The notes under the pieces were generated by a model, which ran no database searches, had not been told where the DNA came from, and was given only the letters and a program-made list of their open reading frames with translations. The translations under genes and the position numbers were made by a program. Shown one piece after another: positions 6,063 to 60,611 of a stretch of 64,000 nt of DNA. Positions within the stretch are counted from its first letter, which is position 1, and each line of letters begins with the position of its first letter. Source of the stretch: Lacticaseibacillus absianus. GTDB taxonomy: Bacteria; Bacillota; Bacilli; Lactobacillales; Lactobacillaceae. Location of the stretch: assembly GCF_013407595.1 (NCBI RefSeq), contig NZ_JABEKX010000003.1, positions 124,001-188,000 on the forward strand. Direction: 5' to 3'.

Positions 6063-6272
6063 GGGGCTGTGCCATAACGCGGTTTTAGCCCAGAGTATAA
6101 GAGCGATCTCCTGTAAAACCCGAACTTAGGTTTTGCAGGGGATCGCTCTTGTACGGCTTGCGCTGCCCGTTCGAACGCAGTGAGTTACAGGCAGACATGC
6201 GTTAGAAAGGGCGTTGCGTTATGGCGCGTAACGTTCTGGAATAGTCGTGCCACCAAAGGTTACGTCACAACC
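6063..6272 (+). repeat. Palindromic MITE-like element, copy A (full, 210 bp)
   Basis: The ends are GGGGCTGTGCCATAAC and, inverted, GGTTGTGACGTAAC. The centre is a long hairpin (GAGCGATC...GATCGCTC around CGAACTTA). The element starts 25 bp after the thioesterase stop, and its outer right side reads CCGCC followed by five T. No ORF of note is inside it. The rest of 6039-6381 holds only the nitroreductase promoter. Confidence 0.9.
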
Positions 6273-6316
6273 GCCTTTTTAGCTGCTTCGGCGAGGTAAA
6301 AAATCGGTGAGAACCG

Positions 6317-6345
6317 TTGTTGCGTGCTCATTCACGTGCTAGACT
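6317..6345 (+). promoter_or_regulatory. Predicted promoter of the nitroreductase gene
   Basis: TTGTTG, a 17-bp spacer and TAGACT lie 37 bp before the start codon. Confidence 0.5.
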
Positions 6346-6381
6346 GAGGCCATTCGAATCAATTCGTTATGGAGTGAGCAT

Positions 6382-7104
6382 ATGGACACACACGCATTGC
6401 AACACCGCAGCATTCGCCGGTTCAAGCCGGTGGCGATCGACTATCGCGCCCTTGAGACCGTCGCGCAGGCGACCAGTTCCAGCGAGTTTCTGCAGTCGTT
6501 CACGATGATCCGCGTCACGACCCCGCGGCTGCGGGCGGCGATCGCCGCGATCTCGGGCAGCCAAGTGCTGGCTCAGCCCAACGGCGAGCTGTTCATCTTC
6601 GTCGTCGACACCGCGCGCGCCATTCGGCTGACCGCGGCGGGGAGCGACTTGCACACGTTGACCAACTGGAACGCCTTTTTGGCGGGCGCATTCGACGCGA
6701 CGCTGGCGGCGCAGAACGTTCTGGTCAGCGCCGAGCGCGCAGGGTTGGGGGGCGTGTTGCTGGGCAGCATCCTCAACGACCCCCAGCAGATGATCGACCT
6801 GCTCCGCTTACCACGGTACACGTTCCCGCTGCTGGGTCTGATCGTCGGGGTGCCGGCGGAAGCACCGGCGGCCAAGCCGCGGCTGCCGCAGTCGCTGGTG
6901 GTGAGTGAGAATGCTTACCCTGCGCCGGATGACGCGGCGATGGCGCGCTACGATGACGTGGTGGCGGCGTATTATGCAGGGCGTGGCGATGCGGCGCGGC
7001 AGTCGAGCTTCACCAGCCTGGTGCAGCGTCATCTCGGTGCTGACCAGAAGCACCGCGACGAGATCGGCCAGATCCTGCGGCAACAGGGCTTCGTACTGGA
7101 TTGA
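6382..7104 (+). CDS. Nitroreductase family / NADPH-dependent flavin oxidoreductase
   Basis: A 240-residue protein of the NfsA/FRP type. The N-terminus HRSIRRFKP is the FMN-binding start of nitroreductases. AFDATLAAQNVLVSAERAGL and GGVLLGSILNDP match the central helix and FMN loop, and LLGLIVGVPAE is the usual end of the core fold. Such enzymes reduce quinones, nitro compounds or flavins with NAD(P)H. The physiological substrate cannot be told from sequence. The gene is monocistronic: it has its own promoter and a repeat element on either side. Confidence 0.88.
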   Translation: MDTHALQHRSIRRFKPVAIDYRALETVAQATSSSEFLQSFTMIRVTTPRLRAAIAAISGSQVLAQPNGELFIFVVDTARAIRLTAAGSDLHTLTNWNAFLAGAFDATLAAQNVLVSAERAGLGGVLLGSILNDPQQMIDLLRLPRYTFPLLGLIVGVPAEAPAAKPRLPQSLVVSENAYPAPDDAAMARYDDVVAAYYAGRGDAARQSSFTSLVQRHLGADQKHRDEIGQILRQQGFVLD

Positions 7105-7280
7105 GGCCTAGTGGAGCAGTACGAGACAAAAGGGGCCGAGACATCATCAACGGCTCACGATAGATGCACGACGACTCCAGAACAGTACGAGCCATAAAGC
7201 GACGCCCAAGCCGTATAAGCATGGCCCCGTGCAACCGGCGCTGGTCCGCGTCAAGTAGACAGGTCAAATAATTAAAGTGC

Positions 7281-8159
7281 CTATGCAGTTTTCCTTACGG
7301 CATGATTCCGATATTCCATCGGGGTCATGCCGTTTAGTGTTTCTTGGCGGCGTTCGTAGTTATACCAGTTGATTGCCGCTTCGATACTCTTCATCATCTC
7401 AAGCTCGGACAAGCAGTGCTCAAAGGCGAACCACTCAACCTTAAGATGGCTCCACAGGCTCTCCATTGGGCTATTATCGCCAGGAGTGCCCGGCCGCGAC
7501 ATGCTGTGGATAATTCCTTCACCTGCTAAGCACGTGTTGTAGGTGCGCCCGGTGTACGCGGATCCTTGGTCACTATGCGTAATTTCTGGCCTGATGCCAT
7601 TGTTGCTCTTGATGGCCAGCTTAATCGTCTTGGTGGTAAGCGCCGCGGTTTCGCTCGGTGCCACACACCAGGCGATCACGCTGTGATCATAGAGATCCTT
7701 CACGGCACTAAGCCGCAGTTTCTGTCTACCATCTTGACCGTAAGTGAGCTCGGAACAGTCGGTCACCCAGACTTTGTTGGCCGCGCTAGGGTGGAAGGCA
7801 TGCCCCGCATCGACGGTGTACAGCTTGTTGGCTAGGAGGAACTCCTTCCTCTCGGCTCTGCGATCGTGCTTCGCTACACGGATAGAGGCTCGAATCCGTC
7901 CCTGACGCATGAGCCTGCGGACACGACCGTGACTCACGTGATAGGGTGTTTCCTTATTGATATACGTCACGAGCCGTTTGACCCCGAAGACATAGTGATG
8001 CTTTTCCTCAAGGGTCACGATGTAGGCCAGAATAGCCTGATTCTCCCGTTCATGGACCGTCACCTTACGATGCGTCCACTTGTAGTACGCTGCACGCGAG
8101 ATACCCAGAAACCGGCATGTCTCACTGATGCCATAAAGCTGACCGGAGTCGGGATTCAC
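7281..8159 (-). CDS. IS3-family transposase OrfB (DDE integrase)
   Basis: A 292-codon frame counted from a GTG that overlaps the OrfA stop. The rve integrase core shows the three acidic residues: VTDCSELTY, HSDQGSAY and NSPMESLWSHLK. The frame is open well upstream in the -1 phase of orfA. The functional protein is therefore most likely an OrfAB fusion made by -1 frameshifting at the A7 run near 8231. In the fusion, OrfB begins with the YQAIQQLAQE helix before the ISRAAYYKW motif. It cuts and joins the element ends. Confidence 0.93.
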   Translation of the reverse strand: MNPDSGQLYGISETCRFLGISRAAYYKWTHRKVTVHERENQAILAYIVTLEEKHHYVFGVKRLVTYINKETPYHVSHGRVRRLMRQGRIRASIRVAKHDRRAERKEFLLANKLYTVDAGHAFHPSAANKVWVTDCSELTYGQDGRQKLRLSAVKDLYDHSVIAWCVAPSETAALTTKTIKLAIKSNNGIRPEITHSDQGSAYTGRTYNTCLAGEGIIHSMSRPGTPGDNSPMESLWSHLKVEWFAFEHCLSELEMMKSIEAAINWYNYERRQETLNGMTPMEYRNHAVRKTA

Positions 8160-8884
8160 TTCTTGCGCGAGTTGCTGAATGGCCTGATATTGCCTGTCTG
8201 ATCGACATTCCCTCTTTCCAGTTCTTGGAGTTTTTTTAACACTGCGACCTCCGTTGACACACGGGTTAATCGTGCCTGTAGTCGCTTGTTCTCGAGCTTC
8301 AAACGCTCTACTTCAGTGAGCTGACCATTATCTTCCTTCGCCTTACCGCGGCGGTCTGCGAGGGCGGACTCACCACCTTGCTTGAACTTTTTGACCCATG
8401 CATAGACCTGTCCATACGAAACGTTGAACTGCTGGGTTGCGGCGACGTAGTCGTGTTCGTTGGCGATGGTCCATTGTGCGATCTCGACACGTTCGAGCTG
8501 CGTAGTCTTGCGTCCATCTTTCATTGGCTTGGCCCTCCCAGTGGCTTGTAGTGATTTACCACTAGTATACAGGGATACCCATTGACCGATGACGGTTTTA
8601 CCCGGAATGCCGTAGGCAACAGCCAGCTGCCGAAAAGATGTGTTACCGGCTAGGTACTTCTGCACGACTTCTAGCTTGAACTCCCGAGAATACTGTTGGT
8701 TAGTATGCCTGGACTTAAGACCATCCATCCCATCAGCTGCGTAACGGTTTAACCACTGGTTGACCTGGTGGTGATCGATACCGTGTATCCTTTCCACTGC
8801 CTGTGAACTCCAGCCGCCCTCATTAACCAGACCAATGTAGAACAGTTTCTCTGCGGGCGTGTATCTTGAACCTATCCGGCCCAT
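8156..8884 (-). CDS. IS3-family transposase OrfA (double HTH)
   Basis: A 242-residue OrfA with two helix-turn-helix domains (around YTPAEKLFYIGLV and SREFKLEVVQKYLAG) and a C-terminal leucine-zipper-like coiled coil (VERLKLENKRLQARL). It binds the inverted repeats. The start ATG at 8884 lies 49 bp inside the right end. The codon pair TTA AAA AAA at about 8233-8241 gives an A7 slippery run. Reading it in -1 joins OrfA to OrfB without a stop. Confidence 0.92.
   Translation of the reverse strand: MGRIGSRYTPAEKLFYIGLVNEGGWSSQAVERIHGIDHHQVNQWLNRYAADGMDGLKSRHTNQQYSREFKLEVVQKYLAGNTSFRQLAVAYGIPGKTVIGQWVSLYTSGKSLQATGRAKPMKDGRKTTQLERVEIAQWTIANEHDYVAATQQFNVSYGQVYAWVKKFKQGGESALADRRGKAKEDNGQLTEVERLKLENKRLQARLTRVSTEVAVLKKLQELERGNVDQTGNIRPFSNSRKK
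8231..8240 (-). other. Putative programmed -1 frameshift site in the transposase
   Basis: On the minus strand GTTAAAAAAACT is read as TTA AAA AAA CTC in OrfA. A -1 slip on the A7 run enters a frame that continues without a stop through YQAIQQLAQE into OrfB. IS3 elements usually make their transposase in this way. Confidence 0.75.
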
Positions 8885-9032
8885 AAAAAAACTCCTTCCC
8901 AGGAAGGCAAGCTTTAATTATTTGCTTGTCTACCTAAGTAGGAGTATAGCCACCCCTAAGTTCGGGGCTTTCACGGGGCCATGCTTATACTCTGGGCTAA
9001 AACCGCTTTATGTCTCAGCCTAGTTGTCTCGA

Positions 9033-10742
9033 TCAACTGCGGCGCTTGCGCCAGCCGAGCGCGAGCAGGGCGACGATGAGCGCCACGCCGCTCACGGCGA
9101 TGAGCGGGGCCTTGGCGTCGCCGGCCTGCGGAAGGGGTTGGCGCTTTGCGCGCGGGGCCTTAGTGGCTTTGGGGCCAGGCTTCTGGGGGGCCGGCTGCTT
9201 GTGTGCGGCTGGGCCTGGCTTCTGAGGACCGTCCGTGTGCGGTTTTTCAGCCGGCACCGGCGTCTTGCGGTAGATCAGGATCACGTCTTGGTCGGTTGCG
9301 GTGTAGGTGCCGGTCAGCGCGCCTTGGCCGACGCGAACGAAGGTGTAGCCGGCCAGCGCCGGTGGGGTAATGGTGTAGCCCTGATCGACCACCCCGTTGA
9401 GCGTCGAGACCGGCGCAAGACCGGCGCCCTGTTCGTCTTGGACGTGGATGTGGACGTGGCCCGGTGTTGGGTCGGGCGGGATCGGGTCTTGGTCATAGAC
9501 ATAGGTGACCGTCTGAGGCGCCGCGGTGTACGTGCCGGTGGGCGCCCCTTCGATCGACTGGACGGTGTATCCCTTGATCGGCAGGGGGGTCGTGGTGTAG
9601 GCCTGCCCGACGTCGCCGGTCAAGTGGGTGGCTTCGGCCAGCGGGTGCCCGTCGCGGTCTACGTACCGGACGAACAGGTTGCCCCAGGTCGTGCGGTAGT
9701 ACTCCATCCCGGTCTGGACCAGGGTATTCCCGTTCGGGTAAGTGACCGGGTCGGGGTAAGGGTAGCCGACGTAGCCATATTGGTTATCGATGATCGTGTA
9801 GCCGATCTTGCCGTACTGCCGCGACTGCGAGATGAGGTAGTCGTGCCCGTTGACGGTCACTTCAGGCGTTGCGCTGTTGTAGGTGTGGTAACCGGTCGCG
9901 ACGGGCTGGCCGTCGATCCCGATCGTCTGGCTGTGGATCAGCAGGTCCTCACCGGTTTGGGCCGCATAGGCGGGCGCCTGGAAGACGCGGTAGTTGTTGA
10001 CGGAGAAGACCTCCGTGTTCGTGAATTTGGCAAAATACGAGAAATCCGACAGGCGTTGGCCGGACAGCGAGAAGTAGACCTTGGCCGGGCTGGCGGCCGC
10101 CGCTTTGGTGAACAGCGGGTCTAGCTGCCGTAGCTGCTCATTGCGCAGACCGGTCGTGTTCGTGCTGTTGGTGACGCCGGCCAACTCGAGGCCCCAGTAC
10201 GGATCAAACTGACCGAACGTGAGCGAGTTCAAGGCGGTGATGTCGGCGTCGGTCCAGTTCCCCGCGCCGTCTTGTTGCAGGGAAATATTGCCGGCGATGT
10301 GTAGACCGGTCAGGGGGACCAGGGAGACACCAGGGGCCATGAACAGCTTGAGCTGAATGCTCCAGCCGCTTGGTAGCTCGCGCAGGGCTTCGAGCCCGGT
10401 CAGGTCGGTCAGCGGGGTCGTGATCATGTCAGGGATCAAGTTGACCACAATGCGCTGATTCGGCATGGCCCCCGAGTTGGGGTCAACGTGGCGAATGTCG
10501 CCGTAGGTCAGCTCGCCGGTTTTGATCCCGAAGGCCTTGCGCAGCCCCGCCTTGAGCTGCGGGTCGTTGATCGTGACGGGATCGGTATCCGCGTGTGTGC
10601 TGAGCGCGCGCGGTCGACTGAGGCGAGTCGCCGGCGTCGTCGTGCTCGGTAGACTGGCCGCGTGAACTGGAACAGCGCCGATCGCTAGGGCAGCGGCCGC
10701 CCCGATCAACAGCGCGGTCGCGTGATGATGACGAATGAACAT
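9033..10742 (-). CDS. MucBP-domain surface protein with LPQAG sorting signal
   Basis: A 569-residue cell-wall protein. Signal peptide at residues about 1-28 (ATALLIGAAAALAIGAVPVHA). Then an internalin-like region with leucine-rich spacing (LTDLTGLEALREL, LVPLTGLHIAGNISL), a middle domain, and two MucBP repeats (VRYVDRDGHPL...TYVYD and IHVQDEQGAGL...LIYRK). A Pro/Lys linker leads to LPQAG, a hydrophobic span and RKRRS. LPQAG departs from LPxTG at position 4. It is likely a mucin or glycan adhesin. The ATG at 10742 follows GGAGG; the open frame runs 99 codons further upstream without a ribosome site. The gene lies 32 bp after a sortase-like gene in the same direction. Confidence 0.88.
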   Translation of the reverse strand: MFIRHHHATALLIGAAAALAIGAVPVHAASLPSTTTPATRLSRPRALSTHADTDPVTINDPQLKAGLRKAFGIKTGELTYGDIRHVDPNSGAMPNQRIVVNLIPDMITTPLTDLTGLEALRELPSGWSIQLKLFMAPGVSLVPLTGLHIAGNISLQQDGAGNWTDADITALNSLTFGQFDPYWGLELAGVTNSTNTTGLRNEQLRQLDPLFTKAAAASPAKVYFSLSGQRLSDFSYFAKFTNTEVFSVNNYRVFQAPAYAAQTGEDLLIHSQTIGIDGQPVATGYHTYNSATPEVTVNGHDYLISQSRQYGKIGYTIIDNQYGYVGYPYPDPVTYPNGNTLVQTGMEYYRTTWGNLFVRYVDRDGHPLAEATHLTGDVGQAYTTTPLPIKGYTVQSIEGAPTGTYTAAPQTVTYVYDQDPIPPDPTPGHVHIHVQDEQGAGLAPVSTLNGVVDQGYTITPPALAGYTFVRVGQGALTGTYTATDQDVILIYRKTPVPAEKPHTDGPQKPGPAAHKQPAPQKPGPKATKAPRAKRQPLPQAGDAKAPLIAVSGVALIVALLALGWRKRRS

Positions 10743-10774
10743 AATGATCTCCTCCATATCGATTGAAACCCGAG

Positions 10775-11458
10775 TCATTGGGCAAAATACAACGTCAAGG
10801 GACTCTCGCGGCTGTCGCCCTGAGGCACGCAGGTCTGAAACGAGATCCCGCCTAGGGCCGCACGTGCGGTGGTCAGGGTGTCGATCGCAGCCTCGTCGTT
10901 CGGCACTCGGTCGAGGATCTTGGTCACATGATAGGTGTGGCCGTCGACCGTGATTGCCGAGCCGCGCTCGACGAACGCGAGCGCTGCATGGGCGGCCCCG
11001 GTGTACTCGATCAGATAATGCCCTGGCAGTGCGGTCCACTCGTAGACGTACCCATCGCCGGGGACCCGTCCGATCCCGGCGAATGGTCTGATCGGATAGT
11101 GGCGACCTGCGAGGTTGAAGCCCGTGGCGGGCGCCGGCGGCCGGCGGACCTGGGCCGGCCGGGTAGTCGTGGTGCTGGTGGTGCGAGCGGTCGGCGGAGG
11201 TGGCGAGTCAACTTGAGCGGATGAGGCCGCAGCTGGGTGCGGCGCATCAGTTGGTGGGTTGACCGGGCGGGAACTGGGGCGAGTGGCCTCGGTGTGGTGG
11301 CTTGTCGCCGATTTCGATGCTGGATTCGGTGCGGTGAACGCCTGACGTGGTGGTGCCGACACAGGTTCCGGGCGTTGACGTCTGGCGGTCGCGGTCCAGC
11401 CAAGCATGGCACAGGTGAGCGTGATCAATGCGCCGCAGTAGACCCCGCGGCGCCTCAT
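10775..11458 (-). CDS. Sortase-like membrane-anchored protein
   Basis: A 227-residue protein: a signal anchor (GALITLTCAMLGWTA), a Pro/Ser/Thr-rich stalk to about residue 110, then a beta-rich domain. The domain shows EYTGAAHAALAFVERGSAIT, DGHTYHVTKI and ISFQTCVPQGDSRES. These could be the His, the beta-strand core and the TC...R of a sortase (His-Cys-Arg triad). I infer this from the pattern and the neighbour: the next gene encodes an LPQAG substrate. It could instead be a degenerate sortase fold with another role. There is no ribosome site before the ATG. A small upstream ORF overlaps it (ATGA), so translation is probably coupled. Confidence 0.5.
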   Translation of the reverse strand: MRRRGVYCGALITLTCAMLGWTATARRQRPEPVSAPPRQAFTAPNPASKSATSHHTEATRPSSRPVNPPTDAPHPAAASSAQVDSPPPPTARTTSTTTTRPAQVRRPPAPATGFNLAGRHYPIRPFAGIGRVPGDGYVYEWTALPGHYLIEYTGAAHAALAFVERGSAITVDGHTYHVTKILDRVPNDEAAIDTLTTARAALGGISFQTCVPQGDSRESPLTLYFAQ

Positions 11459-11529
11459 GCTGGGCCGGCCGGATGCGCGAACGGCAGCGCCCCCGCTGCC
11501 GTTGTTGTGTTGATCGGTTTTATCCTCAA
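11455..11529 (-). CDS. Small leader ORF coupled to the sortase-like gene
   Basis: Twenty-four codons starting at a TTG with AAGGAGGG 7 bases upstream. The stop overlaps the next start as ATGA. The peptide (MRIKPINTT...) has no recognisable function. The sortase-like gene lacks its own ribosome site, so this frame probably delivers ribosomes to it. A GGCAGCG/CGCTGCC hairpin lies within it. Confidence 0.4.
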   Translation of the reverse strand: MRIKPINTTTAAGALPFAHPAGPA

Positions 11530-11569
11530 GCCAAGCCCTCCTTACCCATATGATCGCGCCTCCAGTGCG

Positions 11570-11599
11570 ATTATATAACGATAGTCATTATAAAGACAA
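11570..11599 (-). promoter_or_regulatory. Promoter of the sortase-like/MucBP operon
   Basis: On the minus strand TTGTCT, an 18-bp spacer and TATAAT. The AT-rich stretch 11560-11755 is otherwise empty. Confidence 0.7.
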
Positions 11600-11760
11600 T
11601 AAGCGAACCGTTATCTGTGCTGAACGATATTTTCGATATGAAGAAGGAATAATCGACTGACTACAGGGGAAAAATATCGCGCGCTGAAGAATTAAATGCG
11701 ATGGTTTGAGATTAAAATTCAAATCATTTTAAAAAGGAAAATGTTTTTTTCGGTCAATGC

Positions 11761-11806
11761 AAAAACCCGAGCACCGTGACCACAGTCGTGGTCACGGTGC
11801 TCGGGT
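11761..11806 (-). terminator. Terminator of the LPQTG repeat-protein gene
   Basis: A perfect 19-bp stem starting ACCCGAGCACC around AGTC, with five T after it on the minus strand, 15 bp past the stop codon. Confidence 0.9.
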
Positions 11807-11820
11807 CAGGGACAATGGGG

Positions 11821-13239
11821 TCAGGCGCGCTTACGGCGGCTGCCGGCGAGGCCGAACAGGGCGCCGAGGGTGGCGGTCAGACCTAGGCCGCTCAGAAGCA
11901 GGTCTTGGTCATCCCCTGTCTGCGGCAAGGCCGCCCGCTTAGCAGCCATGCGGCTGAGCGGCGCCTTCGCGGGCTGAGTGGCTGGACGCACGCTGAGCGG
12001 GGTCACCTTCGCGGCCGGCTGATCCGGCGTGCCAGCAGGGGCCGGCGTGGCGGACTGCTGGGTCGCGTGATCACCAGTGCCCGGCGTCGGCTGGTCGACG
12101 CCAGGCTTGGTTACCGGCTTCTCCGGTAGCGCAGGTTGGTCAGGCGTCTCAGGTTGCGTCGGTTTGTCAGGTGCTGGGCTTGGCGCCGGGGCCGGTGTTG
12201 GCGCGATCGGCTTAGGCCCGACATGGTTGGCCCAGACCTTCTGACCGGCTTCGAAGCCTTGCTGCATGGCGGCTTTGACCGTGTCGGATTTGCCGGCGAG
12301 CAGGCTTTCCGGCAGGGCGGCGGCCCCGGTCTGGCCGATCTTGTTGCCAAGGGCGTAAGCGTCGGTGGCTTCTTGGGTCATGCCCGTGGCGTTACCGGCC
12401 TGGTTCTGGTTGTCGGTGATCGGCTTGGTGTTAGCATCGATGCGGTTGGCCCAGACCTTCTGGCCGGCTTCGAAGCCTTGCTGCATGGCGTCTTTGACCG
12501 TGTCGGATTTGCCGGCAAGCAGGCTTTCCGGCAGGGCGGCGGCCCCGGTCTGGCCGATCTTGTTGCCAAGGGCGTAGGCGTCGGTAGCTTCTTGGGTCAT
12601 GCCCGTGGCGTTACCGGCCTGGTTCGCGGCGTCGGTGATTGGGCCAGCGTGGTTGTAATCCGGGCGGCCAGCACCGGACTGATCAGCGTTGTTCTGGTTC
12701 GCGGCGTCGGTGATTGGGCCAGCGTGGTTGTAATCCGGGCGGCCAGCACCGGTTTGATCAGCGTTATTCTGGTTAGTGGCGTCGGTGATCGGGCCAGCGT
12801 GGTTGTAATCCGGGCGGCCAGCGCCGGATTGATCGGCGTTGTTCTGGTTCGCGGCGTCGGTGATTGGGCCAGCGTGGTTGTAATCTGGGCGGCCAGCACC
12901 GGATTGATCGGCGTTGTTCTGGTTCGCGGCGTCGGTGATCGGGCCGGCGTGGTTGTAATCCGGGCGGCCAGCACCGGATTGATCGGCGTTGTTCTGGTTA
13001 GTGGCGTCGGTGATCGGGCCAGCGTGGTTGTAACCTGGGCGGCCGGCGCCGGATTGATCAGCGTTGTTCTGGTTCGCGGCGTCGGTCAGGACGCGCGCGT
13101 TGAGGGCCGCCGGGGTCGCGGCGGTCACCGGCTGGCTGCTCAGCGCTTGGAAGCTGAGCAGGGTCGTGGCGGTGAGGGCGGCGGTCACCCAACCGCGCCG
13201 GGTCTTTTTCAGGGTCTTGCTGCTGCGAAGCTCTGTCAT
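11821..13239 (-). CDS. LPQTG cell-wall protein with 25-residue tandem repeats
   Basis: A 472-residue surface protein. Signal peptide at residues about 1-40 (VTAALTATTLLSFQALSS). Then six near-identical 25-residue units of the type NQNNADQSGAGRPDYNHAGP plus ITDAA, two copies of a unit of about 66 residues (GNATGMTQEATDAYALGNKI...VKDAMQQGFEAGQKVWAN), a Pro-rich wall-spanning region, LPQTG, a hydrophobic span and RRKRA. The role is unknown; adhesion or surface masking is plausible. The start is ATG 13239 after AGGAGGAG. The 75-bp DNA repeats are nearly identical and prone to copy-number change. The gene has its own promoter and terminator. Confidence 0.88.
   Translation of the reverse strand: MTELRSSKTLKKTRRGWVTAALTATTLLSFQALSSQPVTAATPAALNARVLTDAANQNNADQSGAGRPGYNHAGPITDATNQNNADQSGAGRPDYNHAGPITDAANQNNADQSGAGRPDYNHAGPITDAANQNNADQSGAGRPDYNHAGPITDATNQNNADQTGAGRPDYNHAGPITDAANQNNADQSGAGRPDYNHAGPITDAANQAGNATGMTQEATDAYALGNKIGQTGAAALPESLLAGKSDTVKDAMQQGFEAGQKVWANRIDANTKPITDNQNQAGNATGMTQEATDAYALGNKIGQTGAAALPESLLAGKSDTVKAAMQQGFEAGQKVWANHVGPKPIAPTPAPAPSPAPDKPTQPETPDQPALPEKPVTKPGVDQPTPGTGDHATQQSATPAPAGTPDQPAAKVTPLSVRPATQPAKAPLSRMAAKRAALPQTGDDQDLLLSGLGLTATLGALFGLAGSRRKRA
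12639..13090 (-). repeat. Six tandem 75-bp coding repeats
   Basis: Six units of 75 bp within the LPQTG protein gene encode the 25-residue repeat. They differ at a few positions only (Ala/Thr, Ser/Thr, Gly/Asp). Many of the DNA differences between units are silent. Confidence 0.85.
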
Positions 13240-13288
13240 TGTTCTCCTCCTTATTAGGTGGTTCTGATGGATCGATGCCATCGAGCCC

Positions 13289-13318
13289 AGTATACGAGGT
13301 GTCACGACAGGGGGTCAA
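13289..13318 (-). promoter_or_regulatory. Promoter of the LPQTG repeat-protein gene
   Basis: On the minus strand TTGACC, an 18-bp spacer and TATACT, about 50 bp before the ATG. It lies directly downstream of a terminator hairpin. Confidence 0.75.
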
Positions 13319-13331
13319 TTGAATCGAGAGT

Positions 13332-13371
13332 AAAAAAAATTGATAGCTCGCGTTACACAGCGTGCTATCAA
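13332..13371 (-). terminator. Terminator hairpin in front of the LPQTG gene promoter
   Basis: TTGATAGC/GCTATCAA arms with eight T after them on the minus strand. It would stop read-through from the asparaginase and endonuclease genes. The spacer 13372-13562 contains nothing else I recognise. Confidence 0.75.
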
Positions 13372-13562
13372 TCGAAAAAATAGTATAAATGATTATCTCG
13401 GCGAGCGATATAGTGGGTCGACCGCGTGCGAAAGGCGGTTGCGGTGCACGGTCACGGCCCATGGTGGACGGCGATCCGCGGTGGCGTGCGCCGATCGCTG
13501 ACGGCGTCAGCATCATGGGACTCACACTTGATTATTTTTGAATGAAAGGACGATGAGTCGAT

Positions 13563-15518: not shown

Positions 15519-15643
15519 CTAAGGAGTAGGATCCAACGCGTTAAGTGCCGCCGGAACGGAATGTGAACGGTGGACGAAGGCTGCAGCCGCGGTGTTGGAC
15601 CCGCATTCGCCTATCTTTAGTAGGCGTCTCCGCACAAAGGAGA
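15519..15643 (+). promoter_or_regulatory. Tetrahydrofolate riboswitch controlling folT
   Basis: The conserved bases of the THF riboswitch are visible: GGAGTAGGAT, GCGTTAAGTG, GAACGGAATGTG, GACGAAGGC and GCCGCGGTG...CCCGCA. P1 is formed by CTAAGGA (15519) and TCTTTAG (to 15620). Just after it, TCTCC (15627) can pair with the ribosome site GGAGA (15639), so folate binding probably decides access to the ribosome site. The gene that follows belongs to the folate ECF transporter family, which fits. Confidence 0.9.
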
Positions 15644-22373: not shown

Positions 22374-22537
22374 GGGATTGTGCCATAACCTCTGGTGGCA
22401 CGACTATTCCAGAACGTTACGTGCCATAACGCAACGCCCTAGCCGTATAAGAGCGATCCCCCGCAATACCTAAGTTCGGGTTTTGCAGGGGATCGCTCTT
22501 ATACTCTGGGCTAAAACCGCGTTATAGCACAGCCCCC
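22374..22537 (-). repeat. Palindromic MITE-like element, copy B (short, 164 bp)
   Basis: Same ends as copy A but in reverse orientation, and lacking a 49-bp segment (CGCCCT joins directly to AGCCGTATAAG). Just outside, AAAGGTGGG on the left pairs with CCCACCTTTTTTT on the right, forming a terminator for tsaD around the element. Confidence 0.88.
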
Positions 22538-35731: not shown

Positions 35732-35765
35732 TTGGGTGGCCATGCGCGCTTTTGAGTCGCAGTGT

Positions 35766-35806
35766 AACGGCCTCACGCCAGTATTCGTCCGGCGTGAGGC
35801 CGTTTC
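35766..35806 (+). terminator. Terminator of the 35018 gene
   Basis: AACGGCCTCACGCC/GGCGTGAGGCCGTT perfect stem with an 11-base loop and TTT. The same core sequence is seen at 44667. Confidence 0.8.
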
Positions 35807-37074: not shown

Positions 37075-37286
37075 GGGGCTGTGCCATAACGCGGTTTTAG
37101 CCCAGAGTATAAGAGTGCTCCCCTGCAAAACCCGAACTTAGGTTTTGCAGGGGAGCGCTCTTATACGGCTTGCGCTGCCCGTTCGAACGCAGTGAGTTAC
37201 AGGCAGACATGCGTTAGAAAGGGCGTTGCGTTATGGCACGTAACGTTATGGAATAGTCGTGCCACCAGAGGTTATGTCACAACCCC
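37075..37286 (+). repeat. Palindromic MITE-like element, copy C (full, 212 bp)
   Basis: Ends GGGGGCTGTGCCATAAC and GTTATGTCACAACCCC. The central hairpin has GAGTGCTCCCC...GGGGAGCGCTC. Just outside, CCAAAACAG on the left pairs with CTGTTTTGG on the right (13 bp when the outer G/C run is included), giving a T-tract on both strands. It starts 77 bp past the LytR-CpsA-Psr stop. The rest of 36824-37362 has no gene. Confidence 0.9.
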
Positions 37287-44535: not shown

Positions 44536-44666
44536 TCGGCCAAGTCCCCACCGCGCGTGCGCGATTCAGCGTCACGCCACCACCAGTCCCAGACCCTAAG
44601 CTGCGACTGGGTGACCGGTCATACCGCGCGTCCGGGCCTGTCCGCATTCAGCGGGGTGAACGTCTG

Positions 44667-44707
44667 ACGGCCTCATACCAGCCTGTTGCTGGCGTGAGGC
44701 CGTTTTT
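44667..44707 (+). terminator. Terminator of the PTS operon
   Basis: ACGGCCTCATACCAGC and GCTGGCGTGAGGCCGT with a five-base loop and a T5 tail. Confidence 0.85.
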
Positions 44708-44771
44708 GGCGTAGTTGGCCGGCGCAACGGCCAAAAAAAGCCGCCTCGGTCGGCGGCGATGACGTTTACCC

Positions 44772-44982
44772 GGGTTGTAACATAACCTCTGGTGGCACGA
44801 CTATTCCAGAACGTTACGTGCCATAACGCAACGCCCTTTCTAACGCATGTCTGCCTGTAACTCACTCCGTTCGAACGGGCAGCGCAAGCCGTATAAGCGC
44901 GATCCCCTGCAAAACCTAAGCTCGGGTTTTTCAGGGGATCGCGCTTATACTCTGGGCTAAAACCGCGTTATGGCACAGCCCC
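44772..44982 (-). repeat. Palindromic MITE-like element, copy D (full, 211 bp)
   Basis: Reverse orientation. Hairpin arms GCGCGATCCCC and GGGGATCGCGC differ from copy A in both arms together. The right outer flank is CCCC followed by TTTT. It lies 237 bp past the DUF7916-type gene, after that operon's own terminator. Confidence 0.9.
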
Positions 44983-52535: not shown

Positions 52536-52698
52536 GGGGCTGTGCCATAACGCGGTTTTAGCCCAGAGTTATAAGAGCGATCCTCTGCAAAACCCGCACT
52601 TAGGTTTTGCAGGGGATCGCTCTTATACGGCAAGGGCGTTGCGTTATGGCACGTCACGTTCTGGAATAGTCGTGCCACCAGAGGTGATGTCACACCCC
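52536..52698 (+). repeat. Palindromic MITE-like element, copy E (short, 163 bp)
   Basis: Lacks the same 49-bp segment as copy B (TACGGC joins AAGGGCGTTGCG). Ends GGGGCTGTGCC and GTGTGACATCACC. The right outer flank is CCCCC then TTTT. It starts 12 bp after the DUF1827 stop. Confidence 0.88.
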
Positions 52699-52832
52699 CT
52701 TTTCGCGTCTTAACGGGCCTGGTGTGCGCGGGTGTCTGCGGGTGGCAGACAGTGGCCTGTCTGGTGTAGACGGTGAAGGCGCTGCCTTTACCAATGCTTA
52801 AACTTCTGCTAGTATTTCCTCGATGTGAGTTT

Positions 52833-52838: not shown

Positions 52839-52886
52839 GCTAAGGTTTGTTAACTCGAATGATACTTGTGAAATGGAGAGTCTTGT

Positions 52887-54722
52887 ATGTTGCATTTGAA
52901 GCGACTATTGGTGGGGAAACCCCTCAAATCCTCCGATGAAGGCGGGCAGAAGCTCGGCAAGCTCAAAGCGCTGGCGATGCTGTCCAGCGATGCGCTGTCC
53001 TCCGTGGCGTACGGGACCGAGCAGATCGTGCTGGTCTTGACCACGCTGTCGGCCGCCGCGATCTGGTACTCGCTGCCGATCGCGGCCTTCGTGCTGATCC
53101 TGCTGCTGGCGCTGACCCTGTCGTACCGGCAGATCATCCACGCCTACCCGAGCGGTGGGGGCGCCTACCTGGTCGCCAGTGAGAACTTAGGCCAAAACGC
53201 GGGCCTAGCCGCTGGCGGGAGCCTCTTGATCGACTACATGCTGACCGCAGCGGTCTCGTCGTCCGCCGGGGCGGAGGCGATCACCTCTGCGATCCCGAGC
53301 CTGTACGGCCACGAGGCGATCATCGCCTTGATCATCATTGTGATCCTGACGGCGATGAACCTGCGCGGGCTGAGCGAGTCCGCCAACTTCCTGATGGTGC
53401 CGGTCTACCTCTTCGTGGTGTCGATCACCGCGATGATCCTCTGGGGCGGCTACCAGATCGCGACCGGTGCGATCCCGTACCACGCCACCGCGGCAGTTGG
53501 CGGTATCGTGCCGGGTATCTCCATGGCCCTGATCTTCCGCGCTTTTTCAAGCGGGTCGAGTTCTTTGACCGGGGTCGAGGCGATCAGTAACGCCGTGCCG
53601 TTCTTCAAAAAACCGCGCGAGCATAACGCCGCGACCACCCTGGCGATCATGGCCGCCATCCTCGGCTTCTTCTTCGCCGGCATCACCTTCTTGAACTACT
53701 GGTACGGGATCGTGCCAGAAGCCAAGGTGACCGTGCTCTCCCAAGTCGCCAAGGCGACCTTCGGCGGCACCGGGGTGATGTATTACGTGATCCAGCTGGC
53801 CACCGCCTTGATCTTGGCGGTCGCGGCCAACACCGGGTTCTCCGCGTTCCCGATGCTCGCGTATAACATGGCCAAGGATAAGTACATGCCCCACATGTAC
53901 ATGGACCGCGGCGACCGGTTGGGCTATTCCAACGGGATCTTGACGCTGGGCATCGGTGCGGGCTTCTTGATCCTCTTGTTCCAAGGCTCCACCGAGCGCT
54001 TGATCCCGCTGTACGCGGTCGGGGTGTTCATCCCGTTCACGCTGTCGCAGACCGGGATGATCCGGCACTGGTGGGCGCGGCACAAGACGGAGAAAGGGTG
54101 GATCGGCAAGAGTATCGCGAACTTCTCCGGCGCGCTGATCTCGTTTGCCATCCTCGTGATCCTGTTCGTCTACCGGTTGGCGGACATCTGGCCGTTTTTC
54201 ATCATCATGCCGACCTTGGTCTTCGTCTTCTGGAAGATCCACGACCACTACAAGCAAGTCGCTGAGCAGCTGCGCCTGCCGCAAGACATCGAGCTGCACG
54301 ACTACGCCGGCTCCACGGTCATCGTGCTCGTCGGCAACGTGACCCGCGTGACGCGCGGGGCGCTGAACTACGCGCAGACCATCGGGGATTACGTCATCGC
54401 GATGCACGTCTCGATGGACGAGAACCCGAACAAGGAGCAGGAGACGCAAGCCGAGTTCAAGCGCGACTTCCCGGACGTGCGCTTCGTCGACGTCCACTCG
54501 TCTTACCGCTCTGTCGAAGGCCCGACCATCCGCTTCGTGGACATCGTGGCCCGCAACGCCGCTAAGCGCAACTTCACCACGACCGTCTTGATCCCGCAGT
54601 TCGTGCCGAAGAAGCCGTGGCAGAACATCCTGCACAACCAGACGACCCTGCGCCTGCGCGCCGCGTTCGCCAGCCGCGAGAACGTCATCATCGCGACCTA
54701 CAGCTACCACCTCAAGCGGTGA
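52887..54722 (+). CDS. kimA: KimA-like high-affinity potassium importer (APC family)
   Basis: A 611-residue protein closely following the plan of Bacillus KimA (YdaO): GKPLKSSDEGGQKLGKLKAL at the start, AMLSSDALSSVAYGTEQIV, SYRQIIHAYPSGGGAYLV, SSLTGVEAISNAVPFFK and LIPLYAVGVFIPFTLSQTGM, then about 150 cytosolic residues (GTVIV-like VGNVTRVTRGALNYAQ). In Bacillus it is a K+/H+ symporter inhibited by c-di-AMP. Older annotation calls it an amino acid permease. A c-di-AMP receptor, DarA, is encoded at 2737. Repeat copy F begins 11 bp after the stop. Confidence 0.88.
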   Translation: MLHLKRLLVGKPLKSSDEGGQKLGKLKALAMLSSDALSSVAYGTEQIVLVLTTLSAAAIWYSLPIAAFVLILLLALTLSYRQIIHAYPSGGGAYLVASENLGQNAGLAAGGSLLIDYMLTAAVSSSAGAEAITSAIPSLYGHEAIIALIIIVILTAMNLRGLSESANFLMVPVYLFVVSITAMILWGGYQIATGAIPYHATAAVGGIVPGISMALIFRAFSSGSSSLTGVEAISNAVPFFKKPREHNAATTLAIMAAILGFFFAGITFLNYWYGIVPEAKVTVLSQVAKATFGGTGVMYYVIQLATALILAVAANTGFSAFPMLAYNMAKDKYMPHMYMDRGDRLGYSNGILTLGIGAGFLILLFQGSTERLIPLYAVGVFIPFTLSQTGMIRHWWARHKTEKGWIGKSIANFSGALISFAILVILFVYRLADIWPFFIIMPTLVFVFWKIHDHYKQVAEQLRLPQDIELHDYAGSTVIVLVGNVTRVTRGALNYAQTIGDYVIAMHVSMDENPNKEQETQAEFKRDFPDVRFVDVHSSYRSVEGPTIRFVDIVARNAAKRNFTTTVLIPQFVPKKPWQNILHNQTTLRLRAAFASRENVIIATYSYHLKR

Positions 54723-54732
54723 TGGCGCGACC

Positions 54733-54943
54733 GGGTTGTGACATCACCTCTGGTGGCACGACTATTCCAGAACGTTACGTGCCATAACGCAACGCCCTTT
54801 CTAACGCATGTCTGCCTGTAACTCACTCCGTTCGAACGGGCAGCGCAAGCCGTATAAGAGCGACCCCCCGCAAAACCTAAGTTCGGGTTTTGCGGGGGGT
54901 CGCTCTTATACTCTCGGCTAAAACCGCGTTATGGCACAGCCCT
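54733..54943 (-). repeat. Palindromic MITE-like element, copy F (full, 211 bp)
   Basis: Reverse orientation. Hairpin arms GAGCGACCCCCCGC and GCGGGGGGTCGCTC, again with paired changes against copy A. The right outer flank CCCTG then TTTT lies on the exit side of kimA. The mutS leader (54944-55113) contains nothing else. Confidence 0.9.
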
Positions 54944-55113
54944 GTTTTAGCTTCTAGGGCGAGCGAGCAGGGCACCGGCGGCTGCGCCGCGGGGCGTGGG
55001 TCAGTCCGCCGGCGTGATACCCGCCCACTTGGCCGTTGCGATCGGCCCTCTCCCCCAAACCGGCGATCAATGTTAAAATAGACCGTAATCAACCCAAGTT
55101 AAGGAGCGCCATC

Positions 55114-57828
55114 ATGCCGCAAAAAACGCAAGATACGCCGATGATGCAACAGTATCAGGCGATCAAAGATCAGTACCCGGATGCTTTTTTGTTCTACCGC
55201 ATCGGGGACTTCTATGAGCTCTTCTACGAGGACGCCATCAAGGGCTCTCAGCTTCTGGAGCTGACCCTGACGGCGCGCAACAAGAGCGCGGATGATCCGA
55301 TCCCGATGTGTGGGGTGCCGCACCACGCGGCGCAGAGCTATGTCGATATTTTGGTCGATCAGGGCTACAAGGTCGCTATCTGTGAGCAGATGGAGGACCC
55401 CAAGAAGGCCGTGGGGATGGTGCGGCGCGAGGTGATCCAGCTGGTCACGCCGGGCACGAAGATGGACGTCCGCCCCGGTGAAGCGAAGGCGAACAACTAC
55501 CTCGCCGCCGTGGTGCCCGCCGGTGAGCGCTACGGGCTGGCTTACGCGGATCTGTCGACCGGTGAGTTCAAGGTGACGACGCTAGCCAACCGCTTCACGC
55601 TTCAAAACGAACTGGCGGCACTGGGCACGCGGGAGGTCGTGGTGCCGACGGATCTGAGCGACGCCGACCGGACGCTGCTGGGGCAGGGGCGGCTACTCAG
55701 CCCGAGCGATGCGGCCGTGTTGGCGGAGGCCAGCTACGTCAGCCAGGACCTGACGGACACCCTGCAGGTGACGGTCGTCGCGATGCTGATGAACTACCTG
55801 CTGACGACGCAGAAGCGCAGCTTGGCCCACATCCAAAAAGCGGTGGCCTATCAGCCCAGCGAGTTTTTGGAAATGGACCAAGACGCCCGCGCGAACCTGG
55901 ACATTCTGAAAAACAGCCGCACCGGGCGCAAGGGTGATACGTTGCTGGCGGTGCTCGACAAGACCAAGACCGCGATGGGCGGGCGCTTGTTGAAGCAGTG
56001 GCTGGACCGGCCGCTGCTGGACCTGGCCGCGATCACGGCGCGCCAGGAGCAGGTGCAGACCCTGATGGATCACTACTTCGAGCGCAGTGAGCTGCAGGAG
56101 CGCCTGACGAAGGTGTACGACCTGGAGCGCCTGGCCGGCCGGGTGGCGTACGGCACGGTCAACGGGCGCGACTTGATCCAGCTGCAGACCAGCTTGGATC
56201 AGATCCCTGCGCTGCAGACTATCCTGAGCACGTTGGATGACGGCAGCTTCACCGAACTGTTAGCCGCCTTGGACCCAGTGCAAGACGTCGCCAACCTGAT
56301 CCGGCGCGCGATCGAACCGGAGCCGCCGATCTCGATCATGGACGGTGGGCTCATCCTGCGCGGCTACAACGAGAAACTCGATACGTACCGCGATACGATG
56401 GCCAACTCCAAGCAGTGGATCGCCGAGCTGGAGGCCAGCGAGCGCGAAGCCACCGGCATCCACAACCTGCGCATCCGCTTCAACAAGGTGTTCGGCTACT
56501 ACATCGAGGTGACCCGCGCGAACCTGAGCAAGGTGCCGGCGGACCGCTACGAGCGCAAGCAGACGCTGACCAACGCCGAACGCTTTTCCACCCCGGCCTT
56601 GAAGGCCAAAGAGGCGCTGATCCTGGAAGCTCAGGAGCACGCGACGGCGCTGGAGTACGACTTGTTCCAAGACATCCGCGAGCAGGTCAAGACCCAGATC
56701 GGCCGCCTGCAGACGCTGGCCGCCAAGGTCGCCGCGCTCGACGTGTTGCAGAGCTTCGCGGTGGCCGCCGAGAACGATCACTTCGTACGCCCGAGCATGC
56801 ACGCCGGCCACCACGACCTCGCGATCCACGGCGGTCGTCACCCGGTCGTCGAGCAGGTGCTCGGTGAGGCACAGTACATCCCGAACGACGTGGTGATGGA
56901 CACCGAGACCGACATCCTCTTGATCACGGGGCCGAACATGTCGGGTAAAAGCACGTACATGCGCCAGCTCGCCCTGACCGTGATCATGGCGCAGGCCGGT
57001 AGCTTCGTTCCGGCGGATGACGCGAGCCTGCCAGTATTCGATCAGATCTTCACGCGCATCGGTGCGGCCGACGACCTCGCCAACGGCCAGAGCACGTTCA
57101 TGGTCGAGATGATGGAGGCCGAGGCGGCCTTGAGCCACGCGACCGCCAGCTCCCTGATCTTGTTCGATGAGATCGGGCGCGGCACCGCGACCTACGACGG
57201 CATGGCGCTGGCCCAGGCGATCATCGAGTACCTGCACGATCACGTGCACGCCAAGACCCTGTTTTCGACCCACTACCATGAACTGACCGCCTTGGCCGAC
57301 CGCCTTGATCAGCTGGTCAACGTCCACGTCGGGGCGGTCGAGGAGAACGGCACGCTGGTCTTTTTGCACAAAATGCTCCCGGGCCCGGCCGACAAGTCCT
57401 ACGGGATCCACGTCGCCAAGCTCGCCGGCCTGCCGGCCAGCTTGTTGCACCGCGCGGATCTGATCCTCACGCAGCTGGAGGACCAGCCGCGCGCGCTGAT
57501 CGACGCGCCGAGTGCGGCGGCACACCCAAGTCCGGTGGCCCTCGACGCGGCGCCGGTTGTCGCAGTCGATGCCGACGCGACGCCGCCTGTTGCGCGCGAG
57601 TCTGACGTGGCCGGCCCCAGCGCCACGCCGACGTCAGCCCGCACCGCCGTCGCACCACCGGTGGTGGCGGAGGCAGACGGCCAGCTCTCGCTGTTCGGTC
57701 CGGCACCGGTCACGACCAAGCCGGACCCGCTGCTGCGCAAGCTCGAGAAGTTCGACTTGATGGACGCGACCCCGATGGACGCAATGAACCTGCTGTATGA
57801 GATCCAAAAGCAACTCAAGAAGAGGTGA
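55114..57828 (+). CDS. mutS: DNA mismatch repair protein MutS
   Basis: A 904-residue MutS. The mismatch-reading motif is in [11 protein letters not shown]. The connector, lever and clamp domains follow, and the ATPase has [23 protein letters not shown] and STHYHEL. An Ala/Pro/Thr-rich linker of about 90 residues precedes the beta-clamp-binding motif QLSLF, then a C-terminal dimer segment. This makes it longer than the usual roughly 860 residues. ATG 55114 follows AAGGAG. mutL starts 5 bp after the stop. Confidence 0.97.
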
Positions 57829-57833
57829 GCCAC

Positions 57834-59834
57834 TTGGCTAAGATCCACGAATTATCCCCGACGCTCGCGAATCAGATCGCGGCCGGGGAAGTGATCGAAC
57901 GACCGGCCAGCGTCGTCAAGGAGCTGGTCGAAAACGCGATCGACGCCGGCGCGACGCAGGTCGACGTGCTGGTCGAAGACGCCGGGCTGCGCCTGGTGCA
58001 GGTGATCGATAACGGCGCCGGCATCGAGCCAGACGACGTGCCCACGGCCTTCGTGCGCCATGCGACCTCCAAGATCCTGACCACGCGCGACTTGTTCAAC
58101 GTGCACAGTCTCGGGTTTCGCGGGGAAGCGCTGGCCTCGATCGCCGCGGTCGCCGATGTGACGCTGGTGACCGCCACCGAGAACGGGCTGGGCACCAGCG
58201 CGCACATCGTCGGCGGCGCCATGCAGGATCAGCACACCACGGCCGCGCGGCAAGGCACGAGCCTGAGCGTGCGCGACCTCTTTTATAACACCCCTGCGCG
58301 CCTGAAGTACGTCAAGTCGCAGGCCACCGAACTGTCGCGCATCGTCGACATCGTCAACCGCCTTGCGCTGGCGCACCCAGAAGTCGCGTTCACGCTTAAG
58401 AACGGGCAGAACACGATGCTCAAAACGGCGGGGCACGGCGACCTCCAGCAGACCATCGCCGGCATCTACGGCGTGGCGACGGCCAAGAGCATGCTGCAGA
58501 TCACGGGCCAGGACCTCGACTTCACCGTCCAGGGCTTCACCAGCCTGCCGGATACCACGCGCGCCAGTCGCAACTACCTGAGCCTGATGGTCAACGGCCG
58601 CTACATCAAGAACTACCAGCTGGTCAAGGCGCTGATCGCCGGCTATGGCTCCAAGCTGATGGTCGGCCGCTACCCGATCGCCGTGATCGACATCACGATG
58701 GATCCGCTGCTCGTCGACGTCAACGTGCACCCGACCAAGCAGGAGGTGCGCCTGAGCAAGGAGGAGCAGCTCAGCGAGTTGCTGACCACGGCGATCCGTA
58801 GCCGCCTGGGTCAGGAGAACCTGATCCCGGACGCCTTGCACAACCTGCGTCGCCGCGAGCCGGTCAACATGGACCAGCTGACGATCGCGCTGAACGCGGC
58901 GTCGCAGGCCAATGTGGTCAGCGATCACCAAGTTCCGTTGCCGGTCACCGAGGCCCCGGCGCCTGAACCCGACGCTTCGGTCACGCCGACAGACGCCGGC
59001 GCGACACGCACTACCGCGCGTCCAACGGCGGCGCCAGCGCAGGGGGCGTCGATCACCCCGCTTGCCCGGCCGGTCGGGCCACAAGACGACTTCGGCTTGA
59101 CCATCGACGCGCTGGATCCGGCGCCGATCTTCAACGACGCTGAACGCTTGGCCGACTGGGATACGCGCCACGCTGAGCCAGTCTCGGCGCCGACGCCGCT
59201 GCGCCCGGTGGCCGCCCCGGCGCAGCGCTTTCCGCAGCTGCGCTACCTGGCCCAGCTCCACGGCACGTACCTGCTGGCGGAAGCCGACGACGGGCTGTAC
59301 CTGCTGGATCAGCACGCCGCGCAGGAGCGCGTGAACTACGAGTTTTACCGCCAGGCGATCGGCCAGGTCGCCGCGGATCAGCAGGCGCTCTTGGTGCCGC
59401 TGGTGCTCGACTATCCGGCGAGCGACGCCGTCGCGATCCGCGCGCACCGCGACGTGTTGGCGAGCGTCGGGTTGTTCCTCGAGGACTGGGGCCAAAACAC
59501 CTTTGAAGTCCGCCAGCACCCGACGTGGTTCAAGGCGGGCCAGGAGGAAGACACCATCCGCGAGATGGTCGACTGGGTCCTGCGCGACGGGCGCATCTCG
59601 GTCGCCAAGTTCCGGGAGAAAACCGCGATCATGATGAGCTGTAAGCGGGCGATCAAGGCCAACCACCACCTCGATGAGGCGCAGGCCAAGGCGCTCTTGG
59701 TCAAGCTCGCTGACTGCGAGAACCCGTTCAACTGCCCGCACGGCCGCCCGGTGCTCGTACAGTTCACCAACACCGACTTGGAGAAAATGTTCAAGCGCAT
59801 TCAAGACAGCCACGAAAGCGGGGATGACTTGTGA
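57834..59834 (+). CDS. mutL: DNA mismatch repair endonuclease MutL
   Basis: A 666-residue MutL. The GHKL ATPase domain shows [26 protein letters not shown] and [11 protein letters not shown]. After a variable linker of about 100 residues the endonuclease domain has [24 protein letters not shown] and CPHGRP. It nicks the new strand during mismatch repair. The TTG at 57834 gives the standard MAKIHELS start with AGAGGTG upstream; the GTG at 57825 is inside that site. Confidence 0.96.
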
Positions 59835-60391
59835 TCATCCTCGCCAGTGGTTCCCCCCGGCGCCGTGAGCTGCTCGCGCGCGTCGTGCCGACGTTCACCG
59901 TCGTGCCGGCGCAGATCGATGAGCGGGCGCTGCCGCTCCTGCCGCCGCGGGCCTATGTCCAGCAGCTGGCTCGCACCAAGGCGCTGGCCGTCGCGGCACA
60001 ACACCCTGAAGCGACCGTGATCGCCGCAGACACCATGTGTTTTTGGCGTGACACCTTCCTCGGCCAGCCGGTGGACCGCGCAGATGCGGCGCGCATGCTG
60101 CGCCAGTTGGCGGGGCAGACCCACCAGTGCTGCACTGGGTTGGCAATCGCCCGCCCGGACCAGCCGGTGCAACAGGCCGTGGTGACGACTGAGGTGACCT
60201 TTTGGCCGCTCGACGCCGCGGCGATCGACGCCTACCTCGACACTGGCGAGTACGTCGACAAGGCGGGGGCGTACGGTATCCAGGGCCAAGGCGCCCTGCT
60301 GGTGCGCGGGCTGGTCGGCGACTACTACAACGTCGTCGGCCTCCCGATCAGCACGCTGGCGCGGATGCTGGCCGGCCAGTCGCTCGATTGA
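59831..60391 (+). CDS. maf: Maf family nucleoside triphosphate pyrophosphatase
   Basis: A 186-residue Maf protein. [12 protein letters not shown] is the N-terminal signature, [18 protein letters not shown] holds the catalytic Asp, and [27 protein letters not shown] is the C-terminal motif. It hydrolyses non-canonical or modified NTPs. GTG 59831 overlaps the mutL stop, so it is part of the mutS-mutL operon. Repeat copy G starts 10 bp later. Confidence 0.94.
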
Positions 60392-60400
60392 AAAAACGGT

Positions 60401-60611
60401 GGGGCTGTGCCCATAACGCGGTTTTAGCCCAGAGTATAAGAGCGCTCCCCTGCAAAACCCGAACTTAGGTTTTGCAGGGGAGCGCTCTTATCCGGCTTGC
60501 GCTGCCCGTTCGAACGGAGTGAGTGACAGGCAGACATGCGTTAGAAAGGGCGTTGCGTTATGGCACGTCACGTTCTGGAATAGTCGTGCCGCCAGAGGTG
60601 ATGGCACAGCA
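60401..60611 (+). repeat. Palindromic MITE-like element, copy G (full, 211 bp)
   Basis: Hairpin arms GAGCGCTCCCC and GGGGAGCGCTC. Just outside, AAAACGGTG on the left pairs with CACCGTTTT on the right: an intrinsic terminator for the maf operon with the element in its loop. Confidence 0.9.

Follow-up and report, generated by a model that had tools for sequence, protein, structure and literature searches.

A 64,000-nucleotide stretch of the Lacticaseibacillus absianus genome (contig NZ_JABEKX010000003.1, positions 124,001 to 188,000 of the forward strand; hereafter the window) carries eight copies, seven of them intact and one interrupted, of a short palindromic repeat at the 3' ends of genes. 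All eight (A to H) had been listed in an initial annotation of the window, and a repeat search, reading of the sequence and pairing of the ends bore out their places (Table 1). Conserved ends, a CGGTTTTAGCCCAGAG module and a central hairpin, which the annotation had also described, are present in the window copies. The ten adjoining genes that were checked belong to different families. The annotation had every copy follow a gene; the 3'-end location stands, except that the closest gene end facing copy C, and likewise copy D, lies on the minus strand. Copy H, described as a single diverged copy, proved to be of a GGCTGAGACATAAAGCGG sub-type known from other species, and is split within its central hairpin by an IS3-family insertion sequence; its outer flanks, read by eye, are GAGACAA and TTGTCTC. 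We noted two 44-bp stretches near copies C and D (window 44662-44705 and 35762-35805, 75% alike) that resemble the end of an IS3 open reading frame (ORF; 7292-7335, 64%) and are perhaps IS3 remnants.

Table 1. Copies of the repeat and insertion sequences associated with them (window coordinates, except for the last row)
Feature	Position	Strand	Class	Neighbours and remarks
Copy A	6063..6274	+	long, 212 bp	24 bp past stop of acyl-ACP thioesterase gene
Copy H, right half (element orientation)	7132..7252	-		27 bp past nitroreductase-family gene; inner boundary approximate
IS3-family insertion sequence within copy H central hairpin	7253..8933	-		ORFs 7281-8159 and 8156-8884; boundaries and inverted ends approximate, by eye
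Copy H, left half (element orientation)	8934..9020	-		12 bp from 3' end of minus-strand MucBP-domain gene
Copy B	22374..22536	-	short, 163 bp	55 bp past TsaD-family gene stop; flanks AAAGGTG/CACCTTT
Copy C	37075..37286	+	long	76 bp from 3' end of minus-strand LytR-CpsA-Psr gene; perfect 9-bp inverted flanks
Copy D	44771..44982	-	long	41 bp from minus-strand gene 3' end; 235 bp past plus-strand DUF7916 gene
Copy E	52536..52699	+	short, 164 bp	11 bp past DUF1827 gene
Copy F	54732..54943	-	long	9 bp past amino acid permease gene
Copy G	60401..60613	+	long, 213 bp	9 bp past Maf-family gene; 24 bp from 3' end of minus-strand VanZ-like gene
Full IS110 copies L168-L172	C1:1159.4k, C4:475.4k, C4:1046.4k, C4:598.5k, C4:351.8k			Genome search

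We analysed the abundance of the repeat in the whole genome (2.84 Mb, 11 contigs). With copy C as the query, BLAST found at least 73 matches among the 40 of 81 candidates scored, mirror-strand matches counted, and a degenerate end pattern matched 49 times, against once for its reversed control. The BLAST matches plus five additional end-pattern matches gave 45 loci, with both ends paired at 41 places. We kept 39 complete copies of 162-330 bp, leaving out two duplicates (L071, which is L013, and the mirror of L068), both halves of copy H and five loci with a single paired end (L015, L017, L026, L066 and L069). A structure model found at least 62 distinct places at E <= 0.001 among the 93 of 678 candidates scored. 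The elements are a real, multi-copy family. Their terminal inverted repeats are GGGGCTGTGCCATAAC and GTTATGTCACAACCCC, and the size range of 163-212 bp first given for them resolves into two discrete length classes (163-164 bp in 17 of the 39 copies and 207-213 bp in 14), joined by other lengths between 162 and 330 bp in the remaining 8. The long class differs from the short one by a 49-bp module, and some diverged copies have extra TTCGGCATCGCCGGACGGAAGCA-like units. The annotation's reading of the family as miniature inverted-repeat transposable elements (MITEs) is borne out by their shortness, the lack of an ORF of note, the terminal inverted repeats and the copy number, and by the finding that a relative has an insertion sequence sharing these ends (see below).

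Two side observations concern the middle module. In the diverged and mostly longer copies L064, L065, L067, L068 and L072 it holds at least one CGGCATCGCCGGACGGAAGCA-like unit, reminiscent of the variable boxB units in BOX elements. The 49-bp module is also found, whole or in part (CAGGCAGACATGCGTTAG-like), separately from the element at three loci of other Lacticaseibacillus genomes (L040, L043 and L049).

The position of the copies relative to genes was determined with gene calls from our own codon-usage script. Each of the 39 copies is faced by one or more gene 3' ends, the nearest at a median distance of 11 bp; this distance was at most 40 bp in 34 of 39 and nowhere exceeded 114 bp. To orient neighbours, masked bases were treated as breaks and ORFs entering an element were dropped. 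Where both neighbours were called (31 copies), 24 pairs were convergent, 7 tandem and none divergent. The window has 31 gaps of 30 bp or more that lack an element; of these, 5 are convergent, 17 tandem and 9 divergent (Fisher p = 2e-6 for the convergent and 0.002 for the divergent class). Where the neighbours are tandem (seven copies), the element is nearer to the upstream stop than to the downstream start. When ORFs were allowed to run into elements, a single copy of the 39 (L018) was flagged as lying within an ORF, through reading across masked bases. The strict 3' location claimed in the annotation thus held when the 39 copies were checked for random sites in genes or promoters and for missing terminal repeats.

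We tested the junctions of the copies for direct and inverted repeats. No target duplication was found: direct junction repeats averaged 0.97 bases, compared with 1.00 when flanks were swapped (34 copies; 12,824 of 20,000 permutations equalled or exceeded the observed value). In this the family departs from a canonical MITE, whereas a missing duplication would be expected for insertion of the IS1182/IS1272 type. The outer flanks of the same copy, on the other hand, are complementary to each other, with a score of 3.65 versus 2.14±0.21 for flanks swapped between copies (39 copies; 0 of 20,000), a control that allows for A- or T-rich flanks common to all copies. The result was the same without five copies that adjoin an IS110-family element (3.87 versus 2.18±0.23; 0 of 20,000); in those 34 copies the longest exact complementarity was 3.65 versus 2.44±0.20, and reached at least 5 bases in 10, where 2.4 were expected. 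Complementarity was highest in L025 (11/11) and L061 (14/15); copy D of the window scored 0. Remains of a target stem on both sides and no duplication, the marks of a stem-loop-replacing element of the IS1182/IS1272 type, are thus what we found.

This anatomy is what the insertion mechanism of IS1272 and TnSha1 predicts. Published work reports that these elements target hairpins, of which a part is deleted, and that no duplication results (PMC4923244); the mode has been described for IS1272 as inverted-repeat-replacing (PMC5678879). Of seven TnSha1 sites, five are hairpins confirmed as terminators by RNA-seq (PMC4923244).

A search for an insertion sequence with the same ends, which the annotation had proposed, gave a match in L. 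suibinensis and a remnant in the L. absianus genome. The former is an intact IS1182-family element (L083; transposase NF033551, 306 bits, cut-off 270) with the ends GGGGTTGTGACATAAC and GGGGCTGTGACATAAC, to which the right and left ends of our element are identical at 16 of 16 and 15 of 16 bases, respectively. The latter is a decayed IS1182 of which the C-terminal part of the transposase remains, with the end GGGGTTGTGCCATAAC situated 15 bp past a gene read by eye as that for ribosomal protein L31. Relatives of the L083 transposase (E <= 1e-30) occur in 3 of 30 genomes of the genus. Both ends are of the type GRGNNTGNG[AC]CAWAA, one mismatch allowed, in 9 of 18 IS1182 loci of Lactobacillaceae; the other 9 have looser versions (3), unrelated ends (1) or no inverted ends detected by script (5, of which 2 have one such end). 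The mover of the MITEs would thus be of the IS1182 kind, judging from the matching ends and the remnant.

Other transposases were rejected for this role. L085, an L. absianus PF05598 protein, gave a weak IS5-type match under the cut-off and its ends did not match. The ends of other PF05598 transposases of the genus, where found by script, are of another type, for example TAGTGGCTG. Among PF05598 transposases, matching ends were found for L083 and, in another family, for L093, L098 and L101. Two of these, L093 and L101 (G026, another family of the order), are IS1182-type elements with a PF05598 transposase and GGGGCTGTGACATAAG ends, and their outer flanks are likewise inverted repeats (GGCATTC/GAATGCC and AAAA/TTTT).

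To see the sites without the element, we located the flanking genes in two species of the same genus, L. daqingensis (G001) and L. suibinensis (G014), and read 18 and 16 gene ends, respectively. A related element stood at the orthologous site at 1 of the 34 gene ends, and only partially (L014 in L. daqingensis, L196); for L012 in L. suibinensis, a related element lies about 330 bp past the gene end. Both neighbours are conserved within 450 bp at 13 of the 34 gene ends, which, with L014/L196 set aside, leaves 12 comparisons at 9 sites. In 10 of these comparisons (7 of 9 sites) a terminator-like hairpin is present in the relative, whereas L. absianus, the element set aside, has one in 2 of 12 (1 of 9 sites); with L014/L196 included the counts are 11 and 3 of 13. 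At one site (L023 in L189) there is a more obvious hairpin than the one counted. The plainest exchange is seen at L062: in L. daqingensis (L184) the stop codon is followed by a G+C hairpin and TTTTTGTG, and in L. absianus by a few bases and the 163-bp element, beyond which the two sequences align again. Since the hairpins of the relatives' empty sites are mostly missing here, the element probably replaced terminator stem-loops. Targeted insertion, one of two explanations that the annotation had offered for the 3' location, is thus supported both by the locus-specific inverted flanks and by the hairpins at orthologous empty sites.

Together, these results suggest, with a probability that we put at about 0.8, that the elements are non-autonomous MITEs moved by an IS1182/IS1272-type transposase and inserted into stem-loops, often those of terminators. 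Such a transposase would recognise the ends of the element and insert it into an existing stem-loop, whose upper stem would be lost; the target would not be duplicated. The base of the old stem and the A/T tracts would stay outside the element, whose G+C-rich ends would prolong the stem, and the site would probably still stop transcription from both sides. That many intergenic stem-loops are intrinsic terminators would explain why the copies closely follow stop codons and are found mostly in convergent gaps. In the 8 bases beyond the far end of the element the fraction of T is 0.51 (61 gene ends), in a window of 62.5% G+C. A/T tracts thus appear still to border a strong stem, which makes it likely that the site of the element is a terminator acting both ways; termination would then be preserved at filled sites.

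Several observations weigh against this interpretation. The gene calls come from our own script, and the test for copies within genes depends on the run that flagged L018. Some copies have no flank complementarity (L007 and L059 score 0). In L. daqingensis, two of the nine sites (L012 and L016) are without a terminator-like hairpin; the hairpin counts moreover lack a background rate for gene ends in general and, being between species, do not allow the exact bases to be traced, save roughly at L062. No intact transposase of the L083 kind was found in the L. absianus genome in a search at E <= 1e-30. The ends of the intact L. suibinensis IS1182 (GGGGYTGTGACATAAC) are unlike those of that species' own elements (GGCTGAGACAAAA...). 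Finally, in published work one of the seven TnSha1 sites lies in a coding region (PMC4923244) and three older IS1272 copies have no inverted-repeat target (PMC5678879).

It could be argued that insertion is indifferent to structure, and that copies are retained only if they follow a stop codon, a place where a hairpin does no harm or is of use. The element does fold strongly, and the 3' location taken alone would be accounted for. We consider this unlikely, as it leaves unexplained both the complementarity between the two flanks of a given copy and the usual lack of native hairpins at element sites.

We analysed the fold by aligning 33 left halves taken from several species. In this alignment 96.5% of the cells are paired, two-sided changes occur in 23 of 41 pairs, and 192 cells show two-sided changes, compared with 56.6 for shuffled and a maximum of 57 for slid controls; as the structure was derived from the same alignment of related sequences, these figures are not probabilities. 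The core fold thus covaries strongly across the genus. The covariation can come from selection on an RNA or from template-switch correction of DNA hairpins. The hairpin loop is seen in both orientations (L028 versus L025), which points to template-switch correction, at least sometimes.

An exact pattern had no match in the named genome collection; a looser, degenerate one of the left module matched 32 loci there, all in Lacticaseibacillus (L. daqingensis, L. suibinensis, L. suilingensis, L. jixianensis and L. hegangensis). A covariance model built on the alignment of left halves (R1, the structure model used above) had matches in 26 of 30 Lacticaseibacillus genomes and, with stricter filters and L. 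absianus counted, in 13 of 81 genomes and 9 of 40 genera of the sampled Lactobacillaceae, in contrast to none of 35 genomes from other families of the order. The last result argues against the model being a mere finder of long hairpins, although hairpin-only matches do occur within the family. Four loci read from other genera partly retain the GCGGTTAG junction or a CCCGTACTTAGG-like loop; these loci match less strongly, and features of this sort are what the model selects. The element is not a known Rfam RNA: nothing matched it at the gathering score, and copy C gave four sub-threshold matches, three of them to microRNA hairpin models (the best, mir-1343, at 36.1 bits against a cut-off of 51). 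The sole Rfam match in the window is a tetrahydrofolate riboswitch elsewhere (15520-15614; RF01831, 73.9 bits). A long reverse-strand ORF of the window contains, at 12212-13143, 75-bp units repeated in tandem (72-95% alike) as well as a near-duplicate of 212 bp.

Strong covariation and wide spread in the genus would also be found if the family were no transposon at all and its members were instead inherited vertically, as a structured 3'-end RNA or a terminator, and homogenised by gene conversion. Conversion does not produce locus-specific inverted flanks, and vertical descent fits poorly with the 34 orthologous gene ends, where two related elements were met, one partial and the other some distance off. 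We regard such an origin as very unlikely.

Five of the 39 copies share a common right flank. No Rfam RNA gene was found in this flank, which is not a repeat linked to rRNA genes but an IS110-family element (NF033542, 195.5 bits, cut-off 140), labelled RNA-guided in NCBIfam. The genome has five full copies of this element and one 102-base fragment, and each full copy starts about 5 bp or less from the right end of a MITE, be it of the long or of the short class. The non-coding stretch upstream of the IS110 gene contains GGGTTATGT, one base and then CGATTTT, and the joined target has both of them, similarly ordered. With the reverse complement as a control, three 7-mers turned up at scattered places. 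This stretch is a possible candidate for a guide to the IS110 target, with a geometry that has no obvious match among published bridge RNAs. That the MITEs were spread by this neighbour, or by an unrelated transposase, is scarcely credible: although every full IS110 copy adjoins the right end of an element, IS110 is found at 5 of 39 copies only, with both length classes and different hairpins, as would be expected if IS110 had inserted next to the element, and inverted ends without duplication fit IS1182 (no search was made for REP-associated (HUH) transposases).

The annotation knew of no named family that matches. We likewise found no description of the Lacticaseibacillus family in the open-licence literature on such elements in lactobacilli and on the Enterococcus faecalis repeats (EFAR), but two known systems, IS1272/TnSha1 insertions and EFAR, are of the same kind. 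EFAR, the repeats of Venditti et al. 2007, are reportedly palindromic, non-coding, about 170 bp long and built of variable modules; they are said to be inserted in stem-loops, most of which is lost, with part of the stem kept at both ends. Going by this description, our family has the modular length variation and the stem-loop targets too. It belongs to another genus than Enterococcus and adds IS1182-type ends and an IS110 neighbour. The best reading, by analogy, is that it works like EFAR. EFAR are listed among MITEs in published work (PMC3733652). IS1272/TnSha1 share with our family hairpin targets, several of them confirmed terminators, partial deletion, no duplication, 16-bp terminal inverted repeats and a location often directly 3' of genes, but encode a transposase and measure about 1.9-3 kb, in contrast to 163-330 bp of non-coding sequence here (PMC4923244, PMC5678879).

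The Correia/NEMIS elements of Neisseria have ends unlike those described here. They insert at TA, of which the motif is duplicated, and we know of no stem-loop targeting by them. BOX elements of Streptococcus pneumoniae are modular in structure; to our knowledge, flank complementarity has not been reported for BOX, RUP or SPRITE. The likenesses are two size classes through a 50-bp internal sequence and transcribed stem-loops for Correia/NEMIS (PMC2229807), and small structured modular intergenic repeats for BOX, RUP and SPRITE, the last of them terminator-like (PMC10969869). IS110-family elements that target REP palindromes, such as IS621, are known (PMC1525189), a similar case of a repeated intergenic palindrome as an IS110 landing site; REPs measure 20-40 bp (PMC3733652), whereas the landing site here is the end of a MITE.

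It is possible, and we propose it only tentatively, that the family forms a mobile-terminator lineage in Lactobacillaceae, in which IS1182-driven insertion swaps native terminators for a functional standard module that is also the programmed landing site of an RNA-guided IS110. The conserved loop and junctions of the module and its covarying stems would then point to a function of its own, as RNA or as a DNA cruciform.

The stem-loop-replacing insertion documented for IS1272 in staphylococci would extend to a MITE family tied to IS1182. By entering terminators and leaving the stem base and the T tract in place, such an element may have found a route to dozens of copies at little cost. With sites both filled and, at orthologous places, empty, and with a candidate transposase, these non-pathogenic bacteria offer a test system, and an IS110-family element that stands only beside these MITEs offers a natural target for a bridge-RNA test. 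Terminator annotation in Lacticaseibacillus would need to include this MITE family.

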